Source: Nocardioides luteus
Lineage (GTDB): Bacteria; Actinomycetota; Actinomycetes; Propionibacteriales; Nocardioidaceae
DNA: 64,000 nt
Assembly: GCF_015752315.1 (NCBI RefSeq)
Contig: NZ_JADOVJ010000001.1
Span: 4,270,501 to 4,334,500 of the forward strand
Direction of reading: 5' to 3'
Position numbers and translations under genes: made by a program. Positions 22,920-25,062 of this stretch are shown here, piece after piece (position 1 is the first letter of the stretch; every line of letters starts with the position of its first letter). Under the pieces are notes generated by a model, which ran no database searches, was not told the origin of the DNA, and was given only the letters and a program-made list of their open reading frames with translations.

Positions 22920-23768
22920 TCAGTCCTGCTGGAAGATCGCCAGCAGGCGGAGCAGGTTGGTGTAGATCCAGACGAGGCTGACGGTCAGGCCGAAGACGGC
23001 GCGCCACGACTCACGCTCAGGGAGCTGGGCGCGGATGCCCTGCTCGATCTGGTCGAAGTCGAGGATCAGCATGAACACACCGAGCGCGAGGCCGGCGATG
23101 GCGGTGACCATGCCCAGCGTGCCGAGGCCGAAGAGGCCGAAGCTGGCGCCGAAGAAGCCGAGCACGAGCTCCATCAGGCTCAGGCCCACCATGCCGAACA
23201 TGGCCGCGATCACGAAGGTGCGGAACTTGTTGCCGACCTTGATGTTGAAGAACTTGTACGCAGCCAGGGTGCCCGCGAACGCGGCGAAGGTGCCGATCAC
23301 GGCCTGGACGACGATGCCGCCACCGATCATGGCGTCGAACGTCTTGCTCAGCGCGCCCAGGGCGACGCCCTCGGCAACGGCGAAGGCAAGGACCAGCGCC
23401 GGGCTGACGACACGCTTGAACGAGTTGACCAGGGACAGGATGAAGGCCGCACCGGCACCGAGGGTCGCGGCCAGGTAGAGCGGCGCGAGGTTGGCGGTGG
23501 AGTCGATGGCGGGGGTCATCACCCAGGTCGCGATGGCGGCGAGGAAGACGACACCGAGGGTGATCGCGCCCTTCTGCACCACCGAGTCGATCGTCATGGG
23601 GGCGCCCGTGGTGGGCGCCTGGGGGGCGCCGGTCGACCACTGGCTCGGGTCCTGCCCGTAGCCGGCGTACGGAGCGCCGTTGCCACCGTAGGTCGCGTTG
23701 CCGTAGGCGTTCTGCGACGGCTGCCCGAAGCCCTCTGCCCTACGGAACACCGGGTTGTTGCTCTGCAT
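22920..23768 (-). CDS. Bax inhibitor-1/YccA family membrane protein
   Basis: From the ATG at 23768, preceded by GAGGAG about ten bases upstream, the protein has 282 residues. A glycine-, tyrosine- and proline-rich cytosolic N-terminus (1-65) is followed by seven hydrophobic helices with the BI-1 core, including MLILDFDQIEQG near the C-terminus, where the family has its conserved aspartates. Members form calcium-leak or stress-related membrane proteins; the bacterial role is not settled. It is monocistronic. Confidence 0.88.
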   Translation of the reverse strand: MQSNNPVFRRAEGFGQPSQNAYGNATYGGNGAPYAGYGQDPSQWSTGAPQAPTTGAPMTIDSVVQKGAITLGVVFLAAIATWVMTPAIDSTANLAPLYLAATLGAGAAFILSLVNSFKRVVSPALVLAFAVAEGVALGALSKTFDAMIGGGIVVQAVIGTFAAFAGTLAAYKFFNIKVGNKFRTFVIAAMFGMVGLSLMELVLGFFGASFGLFGLGTLGMVTAIAGLALGVFMLILDFDQIEQGIRAQLPERESWRAVFGLTVSLVWIYTNLLRLLAIFQQD

Positions 23769-23940
23769 CTGGGGGTCACTCCTCGAAAGCGACGTGAAAG
23801 GTTCCGCCACGGTGGCGGCTCCTGTGGCCAGCGTACCGGCCCTGTGTCTCACTCAACGTCCGGGACGACCCTGAGGTTCCCGCAGTAACGCGACTGTCGG
23901 ACGTCAACGGCAGACAGAGAAGGATGCCATACTGTTTGGT

Positions 23941-24411
23941 ATGCCGGGCCGCACGCGCGGATGGACCGCATCGGATCTCGAAAGAGCCGTGTCCCTCTCG
24001 TTTTCCATTGCCGAGGTCCTTCGTCGACTCGACCTTCGGGCAGCAGGTGGCAACTACGCCACGATCCGCAACGCGATCGATCAAGCAGGCCTGGATACAT
24101 CCCACTTCAGCGGCCAGGCCTGGAGCAAGAACGTCGTGCTCGGGGCGCGGCGGACGCTCGACGCCTACCTCTCCAACGACTATCCGATCAGTTCGCATCG
24201 CCTGAGACTGCGCTTGATCAACGAGGGCGTCATGCCCGCAAAGTGCAACAAGTGTGGCGGCGTGGAATGGTTGGGCCAGCCGATTCCCCTGGAGCTCGAC
24301 CACCGAGATGGCAACTCCAAGAACAACCGACTCGAGAATCTTGAGTTGCTCTGTCCGAACTGTCACGCTCAGACACCCACCTACCGGGGAAAGAATCGCA
24401 AGCGGGCGTAG
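23941..24411 (+). CDS. HNH endonuclease, 3' end overlaps a tRNA-like gene
   Basis: The 156-residue protein has an N-terminal helical domain (LDLRAAGGNYATIRN, GLDTSHFSGQAW) typical of a widespread group of small actinobacterial and phage HNH proteins, then a zinc-bound HNH domain with CNKC, the catalytic LELDHRDGNSKNNR block and CPNCHAQT. It is a candidate homing-type DNA nuclease. Base composition is visibly lower in GC than its neighbours, which suggests transfer. The last ten bases, including the TAG stop, are also the 5' acceptor strand of the tRNA-like gene downstream, an arrangement hard to explain by chance. Confidence 0.9.
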   Translation: MPGRTRGWTASDLERAVSLSFSIAEVLRRLDLRAAGGNYATIRNAIDQAGLDTSHFSGQAWSKNVVLGARRTLDAYLSNDYPISSHRLRLRLINEGVMPAKCNKCGGVEWLGQPIPLELDHRDGNSKNNRLENLELLCPNCHAQTPTYRGKNRKRA

Positions 24412-24480
24412 GCCAACGGCGAGCCGGGGACCTTAAAAGTCCTGTCGAATGTGTGGGTTCGAATCCCACCGCCCGCACCA
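24402..24480 (+). tRNA. Atypical tRNA-Leu(UAA)-like gene
   Basis: A 79-base cloverleaf can be drawn: acceptor GCGGGCG/CGCCCGC (7 bp), a 3-bp D stem with GG in the loop, anticodon stem GGGAC/GTCCT with loop CTTAAAA (anticodon TAA), T stem GTGGG/CCCAC with loop TTCGAAT, discriminator A and encoded CCA. The anticodon would read the leucine codon UUA, which is very rare in such genomes. The variable region is nine bases, too long for class I and too short and unpaired for a normal class II leucine tRNA, so it may be a mobile-element tRNA or a degenerate one. Its 5' end lies inside the HNH gene. Confidence 0.75.
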
Positions 24481-24501
24481 ACCACCCATCAACCGCAGGC
24501 G

Positions 24502-25062
24502 TCATAAGTACGTCTGGCGCTGGTGGAGCGCGTGGGCGCCGGCGACGCGGTCGATGAAGAGCAGACCGTTGGTGTGGTCGATCTCGTGCTGCAGGCAGCG
24601 GGCCTCGAAGGCGTCGGTGACGATCTCGACGGTCTCGCCGGTGACCGGGAGCTGGCCGCGTACCTTCAGCCGGGAGGCGCGCTTCACGTCACCGGTCAGG
24701 TCGGGGACGGACATGCAGCCCTCGCGGGCCTTCTCGTTGCGGCTGGCCTCGACGACCTCGGCGTTGCACAGGACGTACGTCCCGTGGTGGGTGCGCGTCT
24801 TCACGTGGGTGGAGACGTCGACGCAGAAGATCCGGGCCGAGACCCCGACCTGGTCTGCGGCCAGGCCGACGCAGCCGGGCGAGACCCGCATGGTGGCGAT
24901 CAGGTCGGCGGCGAGCTGGACGGTCTCGGGGGCGGCGGGGTCGACGTCCTTGCCGGGGACGGAGAGGACGTGGGCGGGGGCGCGTACGACGTCGAGGACC
25001 TTGCCCTCGACACCCAGCTCGGCTTCCGTCCAGGACAAGACTCGTTCGTTGATCCCGCTCAC
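24502..25062 (-). CDS. def: Peptide deformylase
   Basis: The 186-residue enzyme contains all three deformylase motifs: GCVGLAADQVG (motif I, GxGxAAxQ-like), REGCMSVP (motif II with the metal-binding cysteine) and QHEIDHTNG (motif III HExxH). It removes the N-formyl group from nascent proteins using Fe2+. The GTG start at 25062 overlaps the stop of the upstream ACT-domain gene by four bases, so the two are co-translated. Confidence 0.94.
   Translation of the reverse strand: MSGINERVLSWTEAELGVEGKVLDVVRAPAHVLSVPGKDVDPAAPETVQLAADLIATMRVSPGCVGLAADQVGVSARIFCVDVSTHVKTRTHHGTYVLCNAEVVEASRNEKAREGCMSVPDLTGDVKRASRLKVRGQLPVTGETVEIVTDAFEARCLQHEIDHTNGLLFIDRVAGAHALHQRQTYL

Follow-up and report, generated by a model that had tools for sequence, protein, structure and literature searches.

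An HNH gene that ends inside a tRNA-Leu(UAA) gene

Inspection of a 64,000-nucleotide stretch of a Nocardioides genome (assembly GCF_015752315.1, genome size 5.82 Mb; contig NZ_JADOVJ010000001.1, positions 4,270,501 to 4,334,500, hereafter the window) found a gene for an HNH endonuclease whose 3' end is also the 5' end of a tRNA gene. The HNH coding sequence, at 23941..24411 on the plus strand, runs from ATG to TAG and encodes 156 amino acids, with a helical N-terminal part and a C-terminal HNH/zinc part. The tRNA gene, at 24402..24480 on the same strand, is 79 nt long with CCA encoded. ARAGORN calls it tRNA-Leu(TAA), with the anticodon TAA at 24434..24436, and Rfam model RF00005 scores 52.3 bits at 24402-24477, the sole RNA-family match in the window at gathering score. 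The two genes share 24402..24411, where tRNA nucleotides 1-10 are the final base of codon 154, the whole of codons 155-156, and the stop TAG (24409-24411), the last of these being nucleotides 8-10 of the tRNA. An earlier reading made from the letters alone (the sequence-only reading) had placed the TAG and last codons of the nuclease gene within such a tRNA, and ARAGORN, Rfam, and the open reading frame bear it out; its description of the HNH gene as GC-poorer also holds, at 61.5% compared with 71.0% for the window.

The cloverleaf folded by RNAfold has stems of 7 bp (acceptor), 5 bp (anticodon), and 5 bp (T), and the UAA anticodon, the discriminator A73, and the encoded CCA are all present. 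By the textbook, tRNA-Leu is a class II tRNA; the long paired variable arm of that class is not seen here, its place being taken by an unpaired 9-nt loop, GUCGAAUGU, at 24444..24452. The two genes make up a cassette of about 613 bp (23886..24498, plus strand; hereafter the module), delimited by the points at which homology to a related genome, G001, breaks at both ends. This interval is filled by the HNH gene and the tRNA; no integrase was found in the element, and attachment repeats were not searched for. The group I intron family RF00028 has no match in the window at gathering score, so the HNH gene is not intron-encoded here. No consensus promoter or terminator was found in 23800-24600, an absence that weighs little for this organism.

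The HNH protein scores 26.4 bits against Pfam HNH_3, above its cut-off of 24.8, and matches PHROG 10822, 'HNH endonuclease', with E=8.4e-46; among the Pfam and PHROGs matches listed there is no GIY-YIG family. A multiple sequence alignment of 60 relatives, chosen from the window and 160 loci after exclusion of L091 and L283 (which have stop codons in their stretches) and of L071, shows C102, C105, H121, N133, C138, C141, and H142 to be invariant. From the known HNH motif, we take H121 (24301-24303), N133 (24337-24339), and H142 (24364-24366), within 24301..24366 of the plus strand, to be the likely catalytic residues, and the predicted catalytic motif is intact. An AlphaFold2 model has a mean pLDDT of 89, with a pTM of 0.57 that makes the placement of the domains unsure. 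Foldseek at E<=0.001 finds 23 viral models, many of them named HNH endonuclease. A search of 72,556 plasmid records returned one partial match.

Linkage of the HNH family to tRNA-Leu genes

Loci of relatives were gathered by protein similarity alone, tRNAs in them were called by ARAGORN, and a tRNA was counted as near when it lay within 150 nt. A near tRNA occurs in 69 of 80 loci from named bacterial genomes, and 59 of these tRNAs are tRNA-Leu (30 UAA, 19 UAG, and 10 CAA). As to placement, 59 of the 69 lie 3' of the HNH gene on the same strand, six lie 3' on the opposite strand, and four lie on the 5' side. By comparison, about 0.3% of random positions in the genome studied here have a tRNA within 150 nt. 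When near-full-length HNH sequences alone are counted, tRNA-Leu is the nearest tRNA within that distance in 43 of 53 bacterial loci and in 48 of 79 viral ones. Among the sources of HNH genes beside tRNA-Leu are Actinomycetota, Bacteroidota, Bacillota, Bdellovibrionota, and Pseudomonadota, several of the genomes being metagenome-assembled. A profile search across 394 genomes of the class found the HNH protein in 41 at E<=1e-20, with 57 matches. For the best 30 of the 57, from 30 genomes, a tRNA-Leu is the nearest tRNA, 3' and on the same strand, in all 30, and it lies within 150 nt in 28; these loci include three carriers of the module itself, and where HNH genes stand in tandem the nearer one was used. 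The HNH family is thus constantly associated, with exceptions, with a conserved target gene, tRNA-Leu.

The overlap of the two genes recurs as well. For the 59 tRNAs that lie 3' on the same strand, a script placed the HNH stop inside the tRNA in 31 loci, past its end in 4, and ahead of it in 24, although one locus scored as inside (L107) really stops 4 nt past its tRNA; in L084 the overlap is a single base. A stop offset of -9, as at this locus, is found in 14 of the 55 named-genome loci with a 3' same-strand tRNA-Leu.

These counts bear on the simplest alternative, that the HNH gene is a chance neighbour, having drifted into a tRNA region that acts as a generic insertion hot spot. Transfer RNA genes are common insertion sites, and in N. 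luteus an unrelated stretch of about 2.5 kb lies beside the module, as such a hot spot would predict. Linkage biased toward one isotype, in several phyla and in viral contigs, far exceeds what this explanation would lead one to expect, and a near-identical tRNA travels with the HNH gene (see below); we regard chance association as highly improbable. The sequence-only reading took the pair for what looks like a mobile nuclease-tRNA unit; it does look like one, and the HNH family is tied to tRNA-Leu.

Tandem arrangements were seen in genomes of family f22, probably Streptomyces, which often have two HNH genes in a row before a tRNA-Leu(UAG) (L390, L392, L393, L396, L400, L404, L406, and others). 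The tRNA-Leu(UAG) that follows them diverges strongly between species, some copies being 76-77 nt long and some 84-86 nt.

Apparent replacement of the resident tRNA

The module stands between two genes on the minus strand. One, at 22920..23852, is conserved in G001 and is presumably TMBIM/Bax1-like; the other, at 24502..25062, which marks the site and contains one TTA codon, we take to be the peptide deformylase gene def. Both names are tentative. G001, with a flank protein 96% identical to that of the present genome, has both flanking genes. Homology to it stops at 23885 and resumes at 24499, and between the flanks it has about 0.1 kb with a native tRNA-Leu(UAA) that is encoded on the other strand from the module tRNA. 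In G015 (flank protein 99% identical) the native tRNA is likewise opposite relative to the deformylase-like gene, and the other flank is a different gene. Both genomes were checked for an HNH gene at this site, and neither has one. The module tRNA differs from native tRNAs at 27-37 aligned positions, compared with a median of 11 differences (range 0-21, 276 pairs) for native tRNAs among themselves. The cassette of HNH gene and tRNA appears to have replaced the resident tRNA, rather than to have been inserted by chance, because the native tRNA-Leu(UAA) is very different in sequence and is inverted in the two relatives. Simple insertion upstream of an unchanged tRNA is rejected on the same comparison with G001 and G015.

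The sequence-only reading had named two observations that would reduce the association to chance insertion, namely HNH homologs without an adjacent tRNA-like sequence and a conserved, normal tRNA at this locus in relatives lacking the HNH gene. The first does not describe the family, most of whose members have a tRNA beside them. The second is found in part: relatives do have a tRNA-Leu(UAA) here, but a very different one, inverted in the two closest that were compared.

Seven carriers of the module were identified: the genome studied here, N. luteus, N. albidus, Nocardioides sp. Root240, G027, Janibacter melonis, and J. limosus. In the six carriers whose HNH frame is open, 0-5 tRNA positions differ, while the encoded HNH proteins share 62-88% identity. 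J. limosus has a broken HNH frame, and its tRNA shows 5-7 differences, among them a paired change in the anticodon stem. We considered whether HNH activity keeps the tRNA frozen; once G027 is included (up to 5 differences with an open frame, 5-7 with the broken one), there is no clean evidence that it does. In Root240 the module adjoins the same flank gene and is turned the other way, and its HNH gene lacks a piece of the N-terminal part; in G027 the module adjoins the other flank gene and is oriented as it is here. A tRNA of the module type occurs, at E<=1e-8, in 3 of the 394 genomes of the class, all of them HNH carriers. The 2.5 kb stretch of N. luteus mentioned above (L057:490-2964) lies just upstream of the HNH gene and is absent from the present genome; its open reading frames presumably encode a TetR-type regulator, an aldo/keto reductase, and a membrane protein.

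The short variable loop

According to the sequence-only reading, the 9-base unpaired loop fits neither tRNA class. That is correct for the textbook classes; as a hallmark of this unit it fails, with all 24 HNH-free Nocardioides loci at the same site having a tRNA-Leu(UAA) of 74-77 nt without a long arm. The short loop is not a product of the HNH gene, because Nocardioides loci free of HNH have it too, and we rejected that explanation. Class-wide, many of the listed matches in 246 genomes to a pattern running from anticodon to T loop are sized for a loop of about 5 nt, as judged by eye and with chance matches included. In the genome studied here, the tRNA-Leu(CAA) (G000:C1:3420902-3420977, L146) is 76 nt long and also lacks a long arm, whereas the UAG, GAG, and CAG tRNA-Leu are long; several other Nocardioides have a long tRNA-Leu(CAA), of 85-86 nt.

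Dependence of the host, and presence or absence at one site

The sequence-only reading proposed looking for a second, normal tRNA-Leu(UAA) elsewhere in the genome; none was found, the module tRNA being the sole pattern match. The same holds for all six carrier genomes searched (N. albidus was not among them), each of which has a single tRNA-Leu(UAA) pattern match, the module's own; the reversed pattern gave no match in any of the six. The flanking gene at 24502..25062 has a TTA codon, and UUA decoding is therefore used. The idea that the tRNA supplies UUA decoding to the element itself finds no footing, with no TTA codon in five module HNH genes. If the tRNA serves anything, these results suggest that it serves the host, because none of the 6 carriers tested has another tRNA-Leu(UAA) pattern match. 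A comparable situation exists for another isoacceptor: of 11 genomes picked for an HNH gene adjoining a short tRNA-Leu(UAG), 10 have that tRNA as their sole ARAGORN-confirmed tRNA-Leu(UAG) pattern match, and the remaining one, G552, has a second, long tRNA-Leu(UAG).

Hymenobacter offers a second view of one site with and without the nuclease gene. The tRNA-Leu(UAA) pattern is matched in 59 of 61 genomes, and among 29 loci read, 13 have an HNH gene beside the tRNA and 16 have none. Where both tRNAs could be placed, the gap between tRNA-Gly(GCC) and tRNA-Leu(UAA) measures 56-173 bp without the HNH gene and 533-620 bp with it. Close relatives in Hymenobacter, as in Nocardioides, therefore differ in whether the HNH gene occupies one and the same site.

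Persistence of the HNH gene beside sole-copy tRNAs could mean that the nuclease has been domesticated, serving its host in the regulation or maintenance of the tRNA gene or in the exclusion of phages that carry tRNA-Leu. For five module HNH copies a simple method gives a dN/dS of 0.10-0.29, silent sites being nearly saturated in several pairs; such values would agree with service to the host. A patchy distribution, with any match at all in 20 of 96 relatives and a full-length one in fewer, fits such a role poorly, as do the broken J. limosus copy and the shortened N-terminal part in Root240. We consider domestication unlikely.

Viral relatives and the nature of the target

The viral loci examined are the best 80 of 324, and they include near-copies that do not represent independent events. 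A tRNA lies within 150 nt in 53 of the 80 and is a tRNA-Leu in 48, of which 43 have it upstream of the HNH gene on the same strand, 29-55 nt away. Rfam, applied to 19 of the 27 loci without a near ARAGORN call, finds a group I intron beside the HNH gene in 9; the same search of 8 viral loci whose tRNA-Leu is ordinary finds none. In L223 and L269 the flanking exons read as a tRNA-Leu split by the intron at the anticodon. L223 and L227 have the same HNH protein and common adjoining sequence, yet their tRNA-Leu(UAA) genes are quite different, one intron-bearing with a long arm and the other intronless and short. L267 and L269 form a second such pair, with HNH sequences identical at 137 of 140 C-terminal positions. 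Intron-split viral tRNA-Leu genes weakly favour a DNA target over cutting of the mature tRNA, because an intron would protect the DNA and not the mature tRNA.

This point matters for a further alternative, in which the HNH protein would be a toxin or a defence nuclease that cuts tRNA-Leu RNA, with the linked tRNA as its cleavage-resistant antidote. Linkage to one tRNA isotype together with swapped tRNAs would fit such a role, and the Septu nuclease PtuB is an HNH protein. The best PADLOC match of the protein is instead 'homing endonuclease' (5.8e-29, residues 74-155), and Septu is absent among the 9 PADLOC families listed, neighbouring genes not having been scanned for Septu partners. The cassette has no room for a partner gene. 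The intron of L223, whose HNH protein is identical to that of the intronless L227, would be no shield for a mature tRNA, and some Hymenobacter tRNA-Leu are identical with and without the HNH gene. An RNA-cutting nuclease is accordingly improbable in our estimation, if somewhat less so than domestication.

A tree of near-full-length relatives (at most 230 aa and free of stops; 112 rows, 93 of them different; viral copies included; root arbitrary) places the Nocardioides and Janibacter HNH proteins in one clade. Their nearest relatives there are the viral L217 and L240 (support 100/90), and two Muproteobacteria sequences lie somewhat deeper in that group.

The anticodon arm of the module tRNA (24427-24443, GGGACCTTAAAAGTCCT) is identical to that in the short viral tRNA-Leu(UAA) of L227, L267, and L279, which may be chance.

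A probable homing endonuclease with a replacement tRNA

The explanation we favour, with a probability of about 0.7, is that the module encodes a free-standing homing endonuclease of the HNH type, which belongs to a family targeting tRNA-Leu genes and carries a replacement tRNA-Leu(UAA). The HNH protein would nick or cut the resident tRNA-Leu(UAA) gene, and repair from a donor copy would install the nuclease gene along with its tRNA. The donor tRNA would be different enough to escape cutting and would take over UUA decoding, a replacement that the comparison of relatives supports. Nuclease and tRNA are probably cotranscribed, because the open reading frame runs into the tRNA and leaves no intergenic room for a separate tRNA promoter. 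The nuclease message would then be severed within codon 154, upstream of the stop, when RNase P trims the tRNA 5' end at 24402. Sequence comparison supports this explanation on several sides: linkage, presence and absence at one site, apparent replacement with a change of orientation, sole-copy status, and a tRNA shared by two bacterial families.

Several observations weigh against it. The nearest tRNA is other than tRNA-Leu in 10 of the 69 bacterial loci and 5 of the 53 viral loci that have one within 150 nt, and ARAGORN finds none within that distance in 11 of the 80 bacterial loci and 27 of the 80 viral ones, although in one of the 11 (L072) Rfam detects a tRNA about 40 nt downstream. G001, which lacks the HNH gene at the site, is not free of the family, having a more distant relative elsewhere beside a tRNA-Leu(UAG). 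The contrast in tRNA constraint between open-frame carriers (0-5 differences) and the broken carrier (5-7) is weak. Purifying selection on the HNH gene would be unusual for a purely selfish gene after fixation, and Foldseek finds no PDB chain at E<=0.001. Finally, Hymenobacter tRNA-Leu can have the same sequence with and without the HNH gene (e.g. L312 and L308); a change of tRNA is therefore not always needed, and immunity must differ there.

A bolder version, which we put forward tentatively and think less likely to be right than wrong, is that of a natural home-and-rescue drive acting on an indispensable tRNA. The nuclease would destroy resident tRNA-Leu genes, the recoded tRNA would rescue decoding, and the RNase P cut, falling ahead of the nuclease stop codon, would make nuclease output subject to a limit set by tRNA output. 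In bacteria and phages alike, tRNA-Leu genes would be overwritten by such elements again and again, which would explain the scatter of unrelated tRNA-Leu beside them.

Relation to known systems

Known homing endonucleases offer partial parallels. Like T4 MobA-E and the phage HNH-3 homing endonuclease genes, as described in excerpts of PMC13096335 and PMC10448857, the present gene encodes an HNH nuclease with a likely DNA-binding part, has no intron of its own here, and occurs sporadically at a fixed site. Unlike them, it is linked to tRNA-Leu, resides in cellular chromosomes, and carries the only tRNA copy found. SegB is a GIY-YIG enzyme, and by the title of a 2008 study by Brok-Volchanskaya it reportedly has to do with the preferred inheritance of tRNA genes. 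Excerpts of PMC13096335 describe SegB of T-even phages (T4/T6) as a homing endonuclease associated with tRNA genes. SegB differs in being phage-borne, whereas the element described here is an HNH nuclease biased to tRNA-Leu, overlaps its tRNA, and is chromosomal.

Mycobacterial tRNA clusters, for which phage-derived transfer is suggested, hold HNH genes, and a short-loop tRNA-Leu(TAG) is noted there too, according to excerpts of PMC6582537. Those clusters add extra tRNAs beside normal copies, in contrast to a two-gene cassette that appears to replace a sole tRNA. Intronless and collaborative homing are established ideas in the excerpted text of PMC3984707. A free nuclease and a group I intron converging on one target, as L223 and L269 suggest, would resemble collaborative homing; here, by contrast, the window contains no intron and the target is inferred. 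In engineered home-and-rescue gene drives the rescue copy is linked and cut-resistant. The nuclease of such drives targets an essential gene for which a rescue copy is supplied (PMC7968924, in excerpt). The present system would differ from them in being natural and bacterial, with a tRNA as the rescue part and a resistance that is inferred.

Within the extracts seen of the open-licence literature (subscription papers not included), no account links an HNH family to tRNA-Leu genes or describes a chromosomal HNH-tRNA replacement cassette. The nuclease type is thus known, while a tRNA-Leu-linked family with a replacement tRNA was not met in that literature. If our explanation is correct, selfish nucleases overwrite tRNA-Leu genes across bacteria and phages, and nuclease-driven replacement, instead of selection on translation, may account for part of tRNA evolution, such as swapped isoacceptors and moved or inverted loci. 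The module would also provide a simple natural model of a drive that brings a rescue copy with it, and a testable case in which tRNA maturation cuts the end of a protein gene. In some soil bacteria, a selfish element looks to have joined the protein-making machinery, the sole copy of a tRNA having apparently been replaced.

Other HNH and tRNA genes in the same genome

A second, shorter HNH gene lies outside the window in the same genome (G000:C1:609810-610244; L153:811-1245) and begins a few nt after a tRNA-Thr(UGU). Among 24 viral relatives of this tRNA-Thr-type HNH, tRNA-Thr is the nearest tRNA within 150 nt in 8, which suggests sister HNH families with other tRNA targets. In L381, L379, and L383 such viral relatives lie about 110-230 nt from tRNA calls of Pyl(CUA) or stop (UUA) type. 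The same genome also has a tRNA-Gln(UUG) with a long variable region (L145; G000:C1:801827-801905) and a second tRNA-Pro(UGG) with an odd D arm (L149; G000:C1:5122467-5122539).
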